The notes under the pieces: model-generated
Told to the model about the DNA's origin: nothing
The model's input: the letters and a program-made list of their open reading frames with translations, nothing else
Databases searched by the model: none
Program-made: the position numbers and the translations under genes
NCBI GenBank assembly: GCA_020072925.1
Contig: JAIQGA010000026.1
Span: 1 to 52,500 of the forward strand
DNA length: 52,500 bases
Direction: 5' to 3'
Source of the DNA: Terriglobia bacterium
GTDB taxonomy: Bacteria > Acidobacteriota > Terriglobia > UBA7540
In this document: positions 164-49,134 of the stretch, piece by piece
Position numbering within the stretch: the first letter of the stretch is position 1
Layout: each line of letters begins with the position of its first letter

Positions 164-884
164 GGCGGGCTGGCGCAGACCCCTGATTTGTGGGGTCTGC
201 GATGTCCCGCAGGGACAGTCTCTTCTCGGGATCATCCCAGCCGGTCCATCTCCAGCAGCGACGCATCCTGCCCCAAGTACAATCTCCAACTCGACCGCGG
301 CCAATCGCCCGGTTCGTTCACCAGTCCGCGCTTGACGGGATTGTGGTGCATGTAGTCGAGCTTTTCCAGCCGCTTCTTTTCGCTGTAGACGTTGAACGGG
401 TAGAATCGCCGCTGCCACACGCGATAATGGGATTCATCGTGCATGGTGGGCGGCAGGCGGAGCCGCTCCAGCATCTTCCCGCACCAGGGATACTGTAGGT
501 TTTCCCGAAGCGCCTTCAGAATGCGGGTGGCCGTTCCCTCTTTCAGCCCCTTCACGATGAGCGGCGCGGCTTCGGCGGGTTGGGGCTTGAGCAGCAGGTG
601 AAAGTGCTCGGGCATCAATACCCAGCCGAGGAGCAGGAACTTCAGCCCCTGCCGCACTTCCGCGAGCCTCTGGACAAAGCAGCGGCAGAAACGCTCGAAA
701 AGAAATAGGAGCGCCCGGCGATAAGTGCTGCTGGTGATGAATTGCAGTTGACCCGGGCTGTAGTTACGCTTGTAGAAGGGCATGTTCGCGTGAAGTATAC
801 TCTCGACGCCTCGGGGTCGAAAGAGAGTCCCTTCGGGAGATCGCAGACCCCACAAACCAGGGGTCTGCGCCAGCCGGCCCGCCC
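164..884. mobile_element. RAYT unit flanked by inverted REP-like repeats
   Basis: The transposase gene at 232-783 is bracketed by two repeats of about 60 bp in inverted orientation (164-224 and about 821-881). They match except for a few substitutions and a 4-base indel. Each contains a hairpin, CGCAGACCCC paired with GGGGTCTGCG (174-201 on the left), followed by a small TCCC/GGGA stem. A related perfect hairpin lies alone at 1880-1911. REP hairpins flanking a RAYT are the expected arrangement for REP/BIME systems. Mobility itself is inferred. Confidence 0.7.
232..783 (-). CDS. REP-associated tyrosine transposase (RAYT, Y1 transposase family)
   Basis: This 183-residue protein starts at ATG 783 (MPFYKRNY), the usual RAYT start; a longer upstream reading would run through the flanking REP repeat. 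The HUH metal-binding motif is visible as MPEHFHLLLKP (His60, His62). The putative nucleophile Tyr144 lies in LDYMHHNPVKRGLV, the family signature Y-[IM]-H-x-N-P-V. RAYTs nick and join single-stranded REP hairpins and are thought to spread REP sequences. The length is normal and the frame intact, and inverted REP-like repeats flank it. No accessory gene is present, so it probably moves or domesticates REPs alone. Confidence 0.92.
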   Translation of the reverse strand: MPFYKRNYSPGQLQFITSSTYRRALLFLFERFCRCFVQRLAEVRQGLKFLLLGWVLMPEHFHLLLKPQPAEAAPLIVKGLKEGTATRILKALRENLQYPWCGKMLERLRLPPTMHDESHYRVWQRRFYPFNVYSEKKRLEKLDYMHHNPVKRGLVNEPGDWPRSSWRLYLGQDASLLEMDRLG

Positions 885-898
885 AAACCCTGCTAATC

Positions 899-1852
899 CT
901 ACTCTCGGGCTCCAGCCTGTTTGAGCAAGGTCGCGACATCGGTGTAGTGTCGTTGGATAGCGACGGAAAGCGCAGTCTGCCCTTCAGGGCCCGTGGAGTT
1001 GGGGTCGGCACCAGCCCTAAGCAGGAGCTTGAGACTGTCGGCGTGATCGGTCACAACCGCCGCAGTCAACGCAGTCCCGCCGCCCTTCATGCTCGCGTTC
1101 ACGTCCGCGCCGGCCTCCAGGAGGGCACGGACGCAGCCCGGGCTTCCGGTGGTGGCTGCGTAGATCAATGCTGTTGAGCCGTCAGGGCTGGTCGCGTTGA
1201 CGTTCGCCCCTTGTCCCAGGAGCTCCTTCACTCTTGCGACATCGCCCAGAAGTGCGGCGTGCATCAAGGGCGTGGTGCCCGGCTCGTACTGGCCAAACCA
1301 GGGGAACATCTGCACGGGAAGCCACTCGTTCTCTGCCAGGAAGACTTGCTTGTAGCCTGTCCCGGCCTCACGCGGCGGGTGTTGATGGCCGGGATCCTCG
1401 ACCCAGATCCCACGCTTCGCTCGGGCGAGCCCAACTGCCTCAAGCCTAGCCTCGAGGCCACTGGTGCGGATGGCCTTAAGTCGGTCGGGATCCGCGACTG
1501 GTTCTGCCGATCGCGCGCCGAGAGAGTCGTAGCTGGTGAAGTACTTCGCCGACACTAGCCTCCAGTTGTTGAAATTTTCCAGCCCCTTGCCGCCACGCGT
1601 CCAATCAAAGTCGAAGGTCAGGACCGCGAGCTTTACTCCCTGATCCCGCATCTCGTCCATCCATGGCTCGTGAATCCCGTCGCCTTTGGCGCCGTGCTCC
1701 ATCATGTTGCGCCACATGCTCTTAGCAGGAAGCGAATCCATCAGGTGTCGCACGGCCTCCTCCTCCGTGGTCCTCGCCGCCGGGATTGCGGGCGCCCCGG
1801 CTTGACACCAAGCGGTCGCACACAGCAGGATAAGCGTAGCGGACGATTGCAC
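899..1852 (-). CDS. Exported ankyrin-repeat protein
   Basis: This protein has 317 residues. The N-terminus (LILLCATAWCQAGAPAIPAA) looks like a signal peptide. A middle region of about 140 residues with no family I recognise follows, then four ankyrin repeats from about residue 190 to the end, recognisable by TPLMHAALLGD, LLGQGANVNA, TALIYAATTG and LLEAGADVNA. The start is GTG at 1852, preceded by GGAG at suitable spacing. It lies downstream of a MacB-type permease on the same strand, separated by a REP-like hairpin, so co-transcription is uncertain. Ankyrin repeats bind proteins; the partner is unknown. The C-terminus ends just before the right repeat of the RAYT unit. Confidence 0.85.
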   Translation of the reverse strand: MQSSATLILLCATAWCQAGAPAIPAARTTEEEAVRHLMDSLPAKSMWRNMMEHGAKGDGIHEPWMDEMRDQGVKLAVLTFDFDWTRGGKGLENFNNWRLVSAKYFTSYDSLGARSAEPVADPDRLKAIRTSGLEARLEAVGLARAKRGIWVEDPGHQHPPREAGTGYKQVFLAENEWLPVQMFPWFGQYEPGTTPLMHAALLGDVARVKELLGQGANVNATSPDGSTALIYAATTGSPGCVRALLEAGADVNASMKGGGTALTAAVVTDHADSLKLLLRAGADPNSTGPEGQTALSVAIQRHYTDVATLLKQAGARE

Positions 1853-39767: not shown

Positions 39768-39795
39768 GTAGGGGCACGCCATGGCGTGCCCCTAC
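39768..39795. repeat. GTAG/CTAC-bounded perfect 28-bp palindrome
   Basis: GTAGGGGCACGCCA is followed directly by its exact reverse complement. A near-identical copy lies inside a coding sequence at 41322-41349. REP sequences recognised by RAYTs carry a GTAG tetranucleotide at the foot of the hairpin, which this unit has on both strands. Confidence 0.75.
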
Positions 39796-39828: not shown

Positions 39829-39894
39829 GTAGCGGCGGTCTATGACCGCCGTATCGAGTCTTCAAGCACATCGGCGCTCACAGAGCGCCGCTAC
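39829..39894. repeat. BIME-like pair of GTAG palindromes
   Basis: GTAGC followed by GGCGGTC-TAT-GACCGCC (from 39829) and CGGCGCTC-ACA-GAGCGCCG followed by CTAC (39872-39894) face each other, with GTAG at both outer ends. The same pair of palindromes is found in the opposite order at 42761-42873. Together with 39768-39795 it fills the gap 39669-39921. Confidence 0.75.
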
Positions 39895-39921: not shown

Positions 39922-42009
39922 CTACGGCGGGAAATTCATGCGGCGCAGGAGGGCCTGGAAGCGCGGGTCGGAGCGCACTGGGTCCCAGTCAGGAGCTACA
40001 CCTAGGTGGACCATGTCAGGCTTGCGTTCCGCGTAGGCTTTCTCCAGCCATTCCATGGCTCGGTCCTTCTCTCCCGCGTCCGCATAGTGCACCGCTATCC
40101 CCGTCGCCGACACATAAGTTCGCTTGGAACGCCTTACCAGCGTCTCCGCTGAGAGGCGCATGGCCTCGCGATACCCACCCCGCGCATACCCGCGATCCAT
40201 GGCTTCCACAAGTTCGCGGTCGCCTGCATCAGCCTTCTTCCCTTCTGCCAGTTGCTCGTCGAACATTCCCTTTGCCTGGAAGACAGACTGGAGCACAACA
40301 TGCGGGAGGCTGGCGTCGGGCTCCATCTTGAGGATGTTGTAAGCTTGCGCGATGGCGGCATCATACTGGCGCGAAAACATCAAGTGCAGGCCAAACCAAT
40401 ACTGAATGCGGGGGTTGAGTGGGTCCAATTCGAGAGCCCGCTCAATCTGCGCCTTAGCTTCCTGCGGGCGTTGCATCACGTGTAGGAGGTCCATGTAACC
40501 AGTTCGCAATTCTCCCGAGTTGGGGTTGAGCTCGATCGCACGCTTATACCCCCTCTCGGCAGCCGCCCAGTCCCACTCATAACAAAACTGGATCCTCGCC
40601 AAAAGCCCGTGAGCGTCGGCCAGTGTATTGTCGAGCTCGAGCGCTTTCAGGGCCGCCGCCTTCGCTTTTGGAAAGGCCTCACGGGCTGGTAGGAATCCGC
40701 GCTCCGCACGCATCCCCCAGGCGAAACCAATACCTACATACCCGGGGGCGTAATTCGGATCTTTCTTCAGGGCGAGCTGGAAGTACTCCAGGGCAGTGTC
40801 GATGCCCTCTTGAGTTCGAGTACCACCATGGGAAACCACGAGCCGGGTTAGGAGATAGCGGCCCTTGAGATAGGCGTCGTGCGCTTCCGGATTGACGGCC
40901 CGCGTGGTGGCCAGGCGCACCTGCTGCTGAGGCGTCAGCTTGCCCTGGATCTCACCGGCAATCGCGCGCGCTACTTCGCCCTGCAAAACGAGAACGTCGC
41001 TCAAGTCGCTCTCGTAACTCTCCGCCCACAGGTGCCGGTCGGTCGGCGCATGGAGGAGGTTGGCCGTGATGCGCACGCGGCTGCCGGAGCGCAAAACGCT
41101 CCCTTCCACCACCGCATCCACGTCCAACTCGCGCGCGATTTCCGGCAGGGTCTTCTTGGTCCCCTTGTAGTGCATAGCGGTCGTCCGCGAAATCACCCGA
41201 AGTGCTCCAATCTTTCCGAGGTTAGTGATGAGCTCATCGGTCATGCCGTCGGCAAAATACTCCTGCTCGGGATCGCGAGACACATTCTCCAGAGGCAATA
41301 CAGCGATGGATTCGATTTTGGGTACGGGCACGCCATGGCGTGCCCCTACTAACGTCAGCAGGCGGTCGCGAAGGCCTGCCAGATTGAATATGAAGAGCAG
41401 AGCGAGTCCGAGCGCCAGCGCGGCCAGACCTACGCCGAACACTGCCAGGCGCCGCCAGCGCATCTGGGCACGATGCGCATCGAGTGCGCCTTGGATGACT
41501 GCCGTGATAGCGCGACGCGCGAAGCCACCCGTGCTGAAAGGAGGAACTGAGGTAGAGACGGCCCGGCGGGCCGTCTCCACAGGTTCAGTGTCCGCGACGG
41601 CCCGCGGTTGGGGCGCCTCAGTGTCCGCGACGCCCGGGCCGACCGTCTCCGTGTCTGAGACGGCCCGGCGGGCCGTCTCTACGGGCGCGATGAACCGATA
41701 CCCGCGACGCGGCAGCGTCTCGATGTAGCGCGGCTTTTCTGCGTCGTCGCACAACACCTCGCGCAATTTCTTGATCGAGCTGTTGACGCTGTGCTCGAAG
41801 TCGATGAAGGTGTCCGCCGGCCAGAGCTTCTCGCGAATCTCTTCCCGCGTGATCAATTCCCCCGGCCGCTCCAAAAGCATCGCAAGTATTCGAAACGGCT
41901 GGATTTGCAGCTTAAGCTTCAGCCCCTGTTTGCGCAGCTCTCCGGTGCGAAGGTCGACTTCGAAAACTCCGAAACGGATATGGTTGGCGAGGGAGGCGAG
42001 TTCTCTCAT
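39922..42009 (-). CDS. Winged-helix/TPR transmembrane regulator (CadC-like), with in-frame repeats
   Basis: The protein has 695 residues from ATG 42009; a GTG at 42045 is possible. OmpR-type winged helix at about 8-108 (IRFGVFEVDLRTGELRKQG, RPGELITREEIREKLWP, HSVNSSIKKLREVL, PRRGYRFIAPV). A linker at about 110-153 is encoded by GTAG palindromes. One membrane segment at about 188-210 (FGVGLAALALGLALLFIF) is followed by another palindrome-encoded stretch (about 221-230). A TolB/adenylate-cyclase-type domain (SIAVLPLENVSRDPEQEYFADG) and several TPRs come next. It is probably a membrane-bound regulator sensing an envelope signal. It is divergent from a small secreted protein gene (42258). Confidence 0.88.
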   Translation of the reverse strand: MRELASLANHIRFGVFEVDLRTGELRKQGLKLKLQIQPFRILAMLLERPGELITREEIREKLWPADTFIDFEHSVNSSIKKLREVLCDDAEKPRYIETLPRRGYRFIAPVETARRAVSDTETVGPGVADTEAPQPRAVADTEPVETARRAVSTSVPPFSTGGFARRAITAVIQGALDAHRAQMRWRRLAVFGVGLAALALGLALLFIFNLAGLRDRLLTLVGARHGVPVPKIESIAVLPLENVSRDPEQEYFADGMTDELITNLGKIGALRVISRTTAMHYKGTKKTLPEIARELDVDAVVEGSVLRSGSRVRITANLLHAPTDRHLWAESYESDLSDVLVLQGEVARAIAGEIQGKLTPQQQVRLATTRAVNPEAHDAYLKGRYLLTRLVVSHGGTRTQEGIDTALEYFQLALKKDPNYAPGYVGIGFAWGMRAERGFLPAREAFPKAKAAALKALELDNTLADAHGLLARIQFCYEWDWAAAERGYKRAIELNPNSGELRTGYMDLLHVMQRPQEAKAQIERALELDPLNPRIQYWFGLHLMFSRQYDAAIAQAYNILKMEPDASLPHVVLQSVFQAKGMFDEQLAEGKKADAGDRELVEAMDRGYARGGYREAMRLSAETLVRRSKRTYVSATGIAVHYADAGEKDRAMEWLEKAYAERKPDMVHLGVAPDWDPVRSDPRFQALLRRMNFPP
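41322..41349. repeat. GTAG-type palindrome inside coding sequence
   Basis: This is a 28-base near-copy of the palindrome at 39768-39795 (one base differs in the left GTAG, here GTAC). It is translated on the minus strand as part of LVGARHGVPVPK, just after the membrane segment of the regulator. It keeps the reading frame open. Confidence 0.75.
41552..41682. repeat. BIME-like palindrome pair inside coding sequence
   Basis: GTAGAGACGGCCCGGCGGG begins a palindrome at 41552-41580, and a second (ending CGTCTCTAC) lies at 41653-41682. Between them are further GACGGCCC/GGGC segments. Read on the minus strand it encodes the linker with the duplicated peptide VETARRAVS. The paralogue at 42907-44658 has a much shorter linker at this point. 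Confidence 0.8.
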
Positions 42010-42683: not shown

Positions 42684-42760
42684 GCCTTGATGGATCATCT
42701 CAGAGGGCGAGGCTCGGCCTGACTCTCGTTCGGGAGGGCCGGCCTCGCCCGCGGCTTTCT

Positions 42761-42873
42761 GTAGCGGCGCTCTATGAGCGCCGAACGTTTTGTGGACTGC
42801 GAGAGCTTGCTCCCGCCTTCCACAGCGGCGGCAAGCCGCCGCACTCCACACGGCGGTCATAGACCGCCGCTAC
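42761..42873. repeat. BIME-like pair of GTAG palindromes
   Basis: GTAGCGGCGCTC-TAT-GAGCGCCG (42761-42783) and CGGCGGTC-ATA-GACCGCCGCTAC (42851-42873) enclose a GGCGGCAAGCCGCC hairpin. GTAG/CTAC ends face outwards, as at 39829-39894. It fills most of the 223-base gap between the small secreted protein gene and the second regulator. Confidence 0.75.
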
Positions 42874-42906
42874 AGTCCGGTTCCTTCGCACCGTCTCCTG
42901 GCCGTG

Positions 42907-44658
42907 CTACGGCGGGAAATTCATGCGCTGGCTCAGGCCTTGGAAGCGGGGAGAGGCTCGCAGGTTTTCGAACCGCGGCTCCACCTTGGACCAAACCAGC
43001 CAAACGTCCCGCTCGGCGTAGGACTTCTCGAGTTGATCGAGCGCCGCGTCCGTCTCGCCCAAGCCCGCATGAATGACGGCAGGCCAGTAGGGTGCGACAT
43101 ACCTCCTCGCGGTCATCTCCTGGAGTTCCCGCAACACCTGCAGTGCTTCCTGTTTTTTTCCGACGCGCGCGTAGGCGTGCCCCAGGGCCGCAAGTGTCGC
43201 GGGATTGTTCCCCGACCCGCTCCGCGTGGTCTCAAAGGCGAAAATGGCTTCCTCGTACCTGTTCAACTGCTCGTACGCCAGGCCCAGCGCATACTGAGCG
43301 GGCGTGAAACCCGGTTCCATCTCCAGCGTTTTGAGCGACTGTTCCGCCGCCAAGTCATATTCCCGGGTGAGGTAGAAATTCCACGCCAGTTCCATGTTGA
43401 TGACCAGGGAAAGAGGCTCGAGATCCAAAGCCCGGCGGATCTCCTGAAGGGCTTCCTGGGCCCATCCCATCGCCAGGCAATAGTCCGCGTAGAGGCGATG
43501 CGCCAGAGCCGAATGGGGGTTTAGTTGCAGTGCGCGCTTGTACTCGAGTTCCGCGCCCAGCCAGTCCCAATCGTAGAATTTCTTGACTTGGGCTAGTGCG
43601 GTATGCGCTTCCGCCAAATCGTCATCGATTTCCAGGGCCATCAGCGCGGCATTGCGAGCCTGCGGAAAGACCTCCTTCGGCGCTTGGAGACTGAGAAACG
43701 CCGCCGATACATGCGCGTCGGCCAGGCCCGCATAGGCAAGCGCATAGCGGTGGTCTTTTTCGATCGCGCGGTGGAAATAATCGAGGGCCTTCGACAGGCC
43801 ATCCGGGGTCATGCGATTCGCGTGGTAGCGCCCCTTCAGGTAATCGTAATAGGCCTCGCCGCTTTCGGCGGGCCGCTTCAAGGGGGCGGCGCGCTCTCGA
43901 GCAAACCGCCGCCCTCGGAGTCGGGTGGCAATCTCCTGCGAGACTTCCTCCTCGAGCGCCAGGAGATCGGACGGGTTGCCTTGAAACTGGCCACCCCAGA
44001 GGCGCCAGCCCCTTTTCGTGTCGACCAACTCCGCGGCAATCAGCAGGGTATCCTGTCGCTCGACCAGTCGGCCTGTCAGCACGGCGTCCACGCCTAATTC
44101 CCGGCCCACCGCGCGTGCATCCAAATTTGGTCCCCGAAAATGAACAACCGTCGTAAGGGCCATCACCCTCACGCCGGGTAACCGGGACAAGGCATCGATG
44201 AGACTCTCGGTGATGCCCAGGCCCAGGTACTCCTTCTCAGGGTCCCCGTCGGCTTTCTGAAAGGGGAGGACGGCAATGGTTTCGATCGCTCCGGGACGGT
44301 CCGGAGCGCCCACCCCGCCGGAACGCTCGACGGGGGCGATGAAACAGTATCCTCGGCGCGCCAGCGTCTCGATGAACCGGGGGTTTTCGGCCGTGTCGCC
44401 TAACACCTGCCGCAATTTGTTCACCGCGGTGTTGAGGCTGCGCTCAAAGCCGACATGGATGTCCGGTGGCCACAGTCTTTCGCGCAACTCCTGACGTGTC
44501 ACGACCTGGCCGGGCTTTTCCAGAAGTAGCGCCAGAATTTGGAAGGGTTTTTCCTGCAACTTCAATTTCAGGCCGCGTTTCCGAAGCTCCCGGGTCTTCA
44601 GATCCACTTCGAAAGCGCCGAAGCGAGCCACCTGGCCAGTCTCCGTCATGGCAATCAT
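42907..44658 (-). CDS. Winged-helix/TPR regulator (second, without membrane segment)
   Basis: The protein has 583 residues from ATG 44658 with GGGGGAG upstream. The winged helix spans residues 10-110: ARFGAFEVDLKTRELRKRG, KPGQVVTRQELRERLWP, FERSLNTAVNKLRQVL, RRGYCFIAPVERSGG. A linker of only about 20 residues leads directly to TIAVLPFQKADGDPEKEYLG and then TPR-like repeats. The ending SPRFQGLSQRMNFPP closely matches that of the paralogue at 39922. It has no hydrophobic segment, so it is probably a soluble regulator. It is divergent from a secreted protein gene at 44875. Confidence 0.88.
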   Translation of the reverse strand: MIAMTETGQVARFGAFEVDLKTRELRKRGLKLKLQEKPFQILALLLEKPGQVVTRQELRERLWPPDIHVGFERSLNTAVNKLRQVLGDTAENPRFIETLARRGYCFIAPVERSGGVGAPDRPGAIETIAVLPFQKADGDPEKEYLGLGITESLIDALSRLPGVRVMALTTVVHFRGPNLDARAVGRELGVDAVLTGRLVERQDTLLIAAELVDTKRGWRLWGGQFQGNPSDLLALEEEVSQEIATRLRGRRFARERAAPLKRPAESGEAYYDYLKGRYHANRMTPDGLSKALDYFHRAIEKDHRYALAYAGLADAHVSAAFLSLQAPKEVFPQARNAALMALEIDDDLAEAHTALAQVKKFYDWDWLGAELEYKRALQLNPHSALAHRLYADYCLAMGWAQEALQEIRRALDLEPLSLVINMELAWNFYLTREYDLAAEQSLKTLEMEPGFTPAQYALGLAYEQLNRYEEAIFAFETTRSGSGNNPATLAALGHAYARVGKKQEALQVLRELQEMTARRYVAPYWPAVIHAGLGETDAALDQLEKSYAERDVWLVWSKVEPRFENLRASPRFQGLSQRMNFPP

Positions 44659-48965: not shown

Positions 48966-49051
48966 TGGATTTGCTCCTCTTCGCCTGAAGCGGGAAATTG
49001 GGTTGACACCCCAGAAACGCGTGAGTATACACCATCCATGCCGTGGGCAGG

Positions 49052-49134
49052 GTAGAGACGCCCCGGCGGGGCGTCTACATGCTGCCCTCGATCTCGCGGC
49101 CAGCTGTAGAGACGCCCCGGCGGGGCGTCTCTAC
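49052..49134. repeat. Pair of GTAGAGACG palindromes
   Basis: Two near-identical palindromes, 49052-49078 and 49106-49134. The second is a perfect 29-base dyad (GTAGAGACGCCCC, central CGG-type core, then its complement ending CTAC). They are related to those inside the regulator gene at 41552-41682. They lie in the gap between the serine hydrolase and the Tat isomerase. Confidence 0.75.

Follow-up and report, generated by a model that had tools for sequence, protein, structure and literature searches.

The window analysed here is a stretch of 52,500 nucleotides from the genome of a soil acidobacterium (Terriglobia). Positions 39922–42006 of its minus strand hold a regulator gene of 694 amino acids, counted from the ATG at 42006, with the frame remaining open to 42045. 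The encoded protein consists of a Trans_reg_C winged-helix (wHTH) DNA-binding domain (Pfam PF00486; residues 31–105, positions 41692–41916, minus strand), a linker, a transmembrane (TM) helix, a conserved sensor-like domain and a TPR part. This layout resembles that of CadC/ToxR-type membrane one-component regulators, which have an N-terminal Trans_reg_C winged helix, a single TM helix and a large C-terminal part, although here the C-terminal part is formed by TPR. The protein does not reach the NCBIfam equivalog cut-off for CadC proper, the lysine decarboxylase regulator (49.4 versus 400 bits).

Three palindromes with GTAG and CTAC ends lie in frame within this gene, two in the linker and one after the TM helix, as the sequence-only reading had reported with correct coordinates. 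The host gene is real, with matches to Trans_reg_C (3.2e-16) and TPR, and both palindrome types, P1 and P2, are read in its open frame. The linker palindromes are of type P1 (GTAGAGACGGCCCGSCGGGCCGTCTC; GTAGAGACGGCCCGCCGGGCCGTCTCTAC). Copy A (41657–41682, minus strand) encodes VETARRAVS at the start of the linker, and copy B (41552–41580, minus strand) encodes the same peptide a second time (VETARRAVST). The two copies are in opposite orientation and 79 nt apart, with their GTAG ends facing outward. They are separated by degenerate palindrome and spacer units (DTETVGPGVADTEAPQPRAVADTEP; 41581–41656, minus strand), recognised from their translation and from direct repeats, D1, spaced 33 and 30 nt apart. 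The third palindrome, P2 (41322–41349, minus strand), encodes VGARHGVPV directly after the TM helix and has one mismatch to GTAGGGGCACGCCATGGCGTGCCCCTAC. A perfect P2 copy lies between genes downstream of the regulator (39768–39795), where shuffled sequences lead one to expect none. The claim that dispersed repeats became protein sequence on both sides of a TM helix is borne out. The label BIME that was attached to them is loose; what is strictly seen is an outward-facing pair together with degenerate units.

The hydrophobic core of the TM helix spans residues ~189–207 (41386–41442, minus strand) on the Kyte-Doolittle scale, and in an AlphaFold2 model built from 23 rows (mean pLDDT 82) the TM segment corresponds to a helix at residues 168–209. 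The wHTH, sensor-like and TPR parts of the model are ordered, and pLDDT is under 50 at residues 114–179 of the linker (41470–41667, minus strand) and at residues 221–223. By this prediction, the captured peptides fall in linkers of little or no order on either side of the TM helix. A paralogue at 42907–44658 (minus strand) has neither the palindromes nor a membrane segment, in agreement with the sequence-only reading: its maximum Kyte-Doolittle mean over 19 residues is 1.31, versus 2.64 for the regulator, and it contains no hydrophobic helix.

The palindromes inside the regulator are of the same type as those dispersed over the genome. In the 6.5 Mb host genome, P2 occurs at 49 places and the P1 class at 38 distinct places, each with up to 3 mismatches, whereas reversed-pattern controls gave 0 matches for either. 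Shuffles and reversed-pattern controls rule out chance and base composition as the source of the palindromes. Among 61 related genomes searched, all compared as draft assemblies, the pattern GTAGGGGC-N(9-13)-GCCCCTAC is present in 26 and the P1 pattern in 10. The cores between the GTAGGGGC and GCCCCTAC arms are almost always palindromic and are lineage-specific, differing by paired changes. In G036, G056, G059 and G052, for example, the cores differ from genome to genome by two-arm changes (ATGCCATGGCAT, ACGGCATGCCGT, GCATAGCTATGC), as if the elements had co-evolved with whatever recognises them. The flanks of the dispersed copies show a weak pyrimidine preference only, which rules out a strong insertion target sequence, and an insertion whose target site could be resolved was not observed. 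Two further P1-class palindromes with a GACGCCCC core are found in the window at 49052–49134, between genes or in the ORF at 49043, within its 5' extension; the copies there are in frame (VETPRRGVST) and probably precede the true start. Outward-facing intergenic pairs at 42759–42783 with 42851–42875 and at 39829–39894 are formed by a third palindrome family (GTAGCGGCG[C/G]TC..GA[G/C]CGCCGCTAC).

Peptides like VETARRAVS and GARHGVP recur in other proteins of the genome. In-gene counts are lower bounds, because gene context was read only for ~70 stretches around known copies. In these stretches, MnmG carries two in-frame copies (VGAHHGVPLP and VGAHHGVPLL), the first of which falls in a 13-residue gap of the alignment to Aquifex MnmG, and MnmA carries one. 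The beta subunit of glycyl-tRNA synthetase (GlyS) contains two palindrome types in frame, two paralogous kinases have in-frame copies in the activation loop after ILDFGLAK, and a further in-frame copy is found in a DUF362 protein. A BadF-type ATPase captured a copy that is read in another frame. Conserved genes hold 12 of the 49 P2 places, and five of these 12, by a strict count, belong to a family with the architecture wHTH or kinase, TM helix and TPR. If this family makes up an assumed 1–4% of coding DNA, the chance of such a share is 6e-5 or less, a post hoc figure for copies that are not independent.

Several homologues of the regulator in the same genome coincide with palindrome places, and the palindromes recur at the same sites. 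After the wHTH domain (..RGYRFIA[P/A]), P1 encodes VETARRAVS in the window gene and in C181, and it does so after a short extra stretch in C187 and C80. The wHTH domain of C5 is 94% identical to that of the window gene, yet its linker is built from different palindromes: a degenerate P1, a relative with a GCTCC core, the GGGTTTGAAACCC type (VGAGLKPAP) and P2, in this order. Linker length varies by palindrome units. In C5 (L081), which among the paralogues is nearest to the window gene in its wHTH domain, a frameshift separates the DNA-binding part from the TPR part; it falls in the stretch with the four palindromes.

The peptide that P2 encodes behind the TM helix is VGARHGVPL, with minor variation, in the window gene, C187, C158 and C239, as well as in a member of another genus (L090 in G003). 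At least five sequence types occupy this site in the same register when paralogues are taken together with relatives from other genera; the products of these types include VGARHGVPL, VGAVREPPL, VGAIHESPL, VGAGSARPREGGALPY, VGAGLALPY and VGAGLVPALGRPRGAPL. Three residues after LRDRL, C424 has GTAGGGGCGGTTCGCGAACCGCCCCTAC (VGAVREPPL), which is eroded in C80, G019 has GTGGGGGCAATTCATGAATCGCCCCTGC (VGAIHESPL), G003 and G016 have the 48-nt type VGAGSARPREGGALPY, and three further palindrome types are found in G003. The remaining family members are empty at this site (LRDRLLGRAAATPKIES and similar) or eroded. In 8 of 113 homologues, palindromic DNA with a score of at least 10 directly precedes the conserved IxSxAVLPL motif; among control windows taken from the same genes, 1 of 452 reaches that score (Fisher p 1.6e-5). 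None of 80 homologues, beyond those that are members of the set of relatives, reached this score at the post-TM site, and many of them have a TM helix there. No distant orthologue with the same linker in a palindrome-free genome was found among the homologues examined. What comes nearest to that case is an eroded VGAGRESPQ, found once in G023; this genome has no exact GTAGGGGC..GCCCCTAC palindrome left.

The age of the palindromes can be judged from third codon positions, compared in ungapped alignments and MAFFT profiles. Between the five P2 carriers, the palindrome is 89–100% identical and its third positions have an identity of 0.89–1.00, whereas third-position identity in the flanks is 0.29–0.43 upstream and 0.43–0.63 downstream. 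The upstream range excludes comparisons with L080, where the contig starts and too few bases are available. Because third positions are nearly identical inside the palindrome and much less so in its flanks, the palindromes are, by this sequence measure, far younger than the gene duplications. In a tree of the downstream domain, inferred by maximum likelihood from 40 rows, the P2 type occurs in five rows and needs 5 changes; well-supported branches force at least 3 of these. Occupants differ between sister rows: L076 has P2 and L077 the VGAVREP type (support 97/80), L050 differs from L166 (99/84), L052 is empty and L170 occupied (99/94), and the window gene and C158 have P2 where L175 has another type (98/95). 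The tree and the third-position identities rule out simple inheritance from a duplicated ancestor.

We consider it likely that permissive juxtamembrane linkers repeatedly received REP-like mobile palindromes, by insertion or by exchange. The identity with dispersed copies, the in-frame capture and the recurrence of different types at the same site support this, as does the youth of the palindromes relative to the gene. The palindromes would be mobile elements with GTAG/CTAC ends that belong to several lineage-specific families and scatter between genes and, occasionally, into genes. Of the palindrome's three frames, one carries TAG and two are open, and a copy that lands in a gene would survive only if the GTA GGG GC.. 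or GTA GAG AC.. frame is in register. Survival would also depend on landing in a flexible linker or surface loop, and the disordered placement of the captured peptides in the structure model is consistent with this. The linkers that flank the TM helix of the expanded wHTH/kinase, TM and TPR family would be such permissive spots. Their repeated occupation, swapping and emptying would explain why the palindrome at this codon position differs from one paralogue to the next. The captured peptide itself is most likely just a neutral, disordered linker extension that later erodes.

The mobilisers are most likely REP-associated tyrosine transposases (RAYTs), as suggested by the association of the palindromes with two RAYT-like genes (NF047646; L108 and L139), which have palindromes inside and on both sides. 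In L108, a RAYT-like ORF (2150–2665) lies between two GTAGAGACGTTCCGGCGGAACGTCTCTAC, variants of which are in frame after the HUH motif, and L139 has P2-type copies inside and around the gene. Neither gene looks intact, and with 18.5–44.7 bits both score below the curated NF047646 cut-off of 80. No palindromes were found near the Pfam-found Y1 transposase genes of the host genome. The window itself contains a Y1 tyrosine transposase gene at 232–1011 (minus strand; Y1_Tnp match at 487–750, PF01797, 28.8 bits), with no palindromes nearby.

One observation goes against tolerance alone. The left boundary of the post-TM palindromes is nearly always at the same codon, three residues after LRDRL, which is tighter than repeated insertion into a tolerant linker predicts. 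This constant boundary may reflect a single ancestral capture per linker site, followed by replacement of the core through exchange via the shared GTAGGGGC/GCCCCTAC arms and by occasional loss. The exchange would have taken place by gene conversion or hairpin-templated correction. Besides the boundary, such exchange is favoured because the arms are shared and the palindromic cores variable, and eroded remnants are found at the same place in L062, L054, L165 and L166. However, fresh insertion is favoured because no remnant is left in the sister genes that are empty (L052 beside L170, L167 beside L087) and because right flanks differ: the P2 type ends before PKIES, whereas VGAVREPPL (in C424) and VGAIHESPL end before QIxS. 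A single capture with later exchange seems to us possible, though less likely than not.

It is rather unlikely, in our estimate, that the palindromes served as in-frame recombination joints at which DNA-binding or kinase halves, themselves nearly identical, acquired different sensor halves. The halves would be swappable because many paralogues share the GTAGGGGC/GCCCCTAC arms in the same codon register. The wHTH domains of C187, C80 and C5 are 92–94% identical to that of the window gene, the sensor domains 68–85% and the TPR parts 41–44%. The window gene's sensor domain resembles that of the kinase protein C158 (84%) more than those of C187 or C80, and identity between L090 and L172 falls from ~0.88 before the palindrome to ~0.7 after it. 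However, swapping of modules is also seen between L052 and L170, one of which is empty at the site, and rate differences between domains or gene conversion of the wHTH domain could give the same picture. If such joining did occur, a selfish repeat would drive the diversification of a signalling family.

We think it improbable that the captured peptides were selected for a linker or juxtamembrane function, such as spacing, flexibility or membrane-proximal charge. Repeated occupation of the same two linkers would fit such selection, as would the five of 12 in-gene P2 copies in a family that probably makes up a few percent of coding DNA at most. However, the peptide varies with the palindrome type, many homologues are empty and yet apparently intact, unrelated enzymes also host copies, and old copies erode. 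Weakest of all is the proposal of the sequence-only reading that palindrome capture accompanied the conversion of a soluble into a membrane regulator: it fits the palindrome-free paralogue without a TM helix in the window, but is very improbable because many palindrome-free full-length homologues across Terriglobia have the TM helix, L175 has a palindrome at the junction without one, soluble enzymes carry captured palindromes, and the palindromes are far younger than the family.

Repeated insertion or exchange of REP-like palindromes has known counterparts, and the capture of such repeats by genes is not new in itself. Intragenic GTAG REPs are dispersed between genes and in frame inside genes, where they are thought to lie in linkers or loops (Di Nocera et al. 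2013, PMC3733652). As in those REPs, the palindromes here are short, high-copy and dispersed, begin with GTAG (49 and 38 places, 0 in the reversed control), form outward head-to-head (HH) pairs (P1 at 41552/41682 and the third family at 42759/42875 between genes) and have tRNA-modification genes among their hosts. The GTAG superfamily is defined by an unpaired GTAG tag at one end (PMC3733652), whereas here GTAG pairs with CTAC and the elements are symmetric at both ends; we therefore do not claim strict membership. Rickettsia palindromic elements (RPEs) insert in frame into many unrelated protein genes and add peptides to their products (PMC3733652), as do the palindromes in MnmG, MnmA, GlyS, kinases, the DUF362 protein and the regulators. 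The likeness to RPEs is one of description rather than of sequence, and host lineage and element length differ. The position of palindromes around and inside RAYT-like genes recalls TnpA-REP/RAYT systems (PMC8266576, PMC2817692), the biochemistry of which has been described (PMC8266576), whereas the genes found here look broken and score below the cut-off.

The new part is the dense recurrence of different palindromes at the same site in one paralogous family across several genera. For intragenic GTAG REPs, one instance in which differing REPs occupy approximately one site has been reported, in recB of two Xanthomonas species (PMC3733652). No account of such palindrome capture in Acidobacteriota was found in the openly licensed literature, and a search for the palindrome string returned no relevant paper. 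The regulator family offers a clear case, open to testing, in which mobile palindromic DNA contributes to protein sequence. A single codon position shows many stages, from empty to freshly occupied by several types to eroded, and the surrounding gene provides a reference for dating the palindromes, so how often and where REP-like elements become protein is measurable. Peptides like VGARHGVPL or VETARRAVS in annotated proteins should be regarded as repeat-derived and not as conserved motifs.

Other insertions were noted in two of the proteins with captured copies. Besides its P2 copy, MnmA (L136) has a long insert after MSGGVDSSTAAALLAE with the repeat-like peptides GGHPRASGDP and GGHRPPLQ. In a second loop of a kinase (L137, residues ~103–130), an insert, AAGPRFRGDDRRPDIGAHRAPLELD, looks derived from yet other repeat families.
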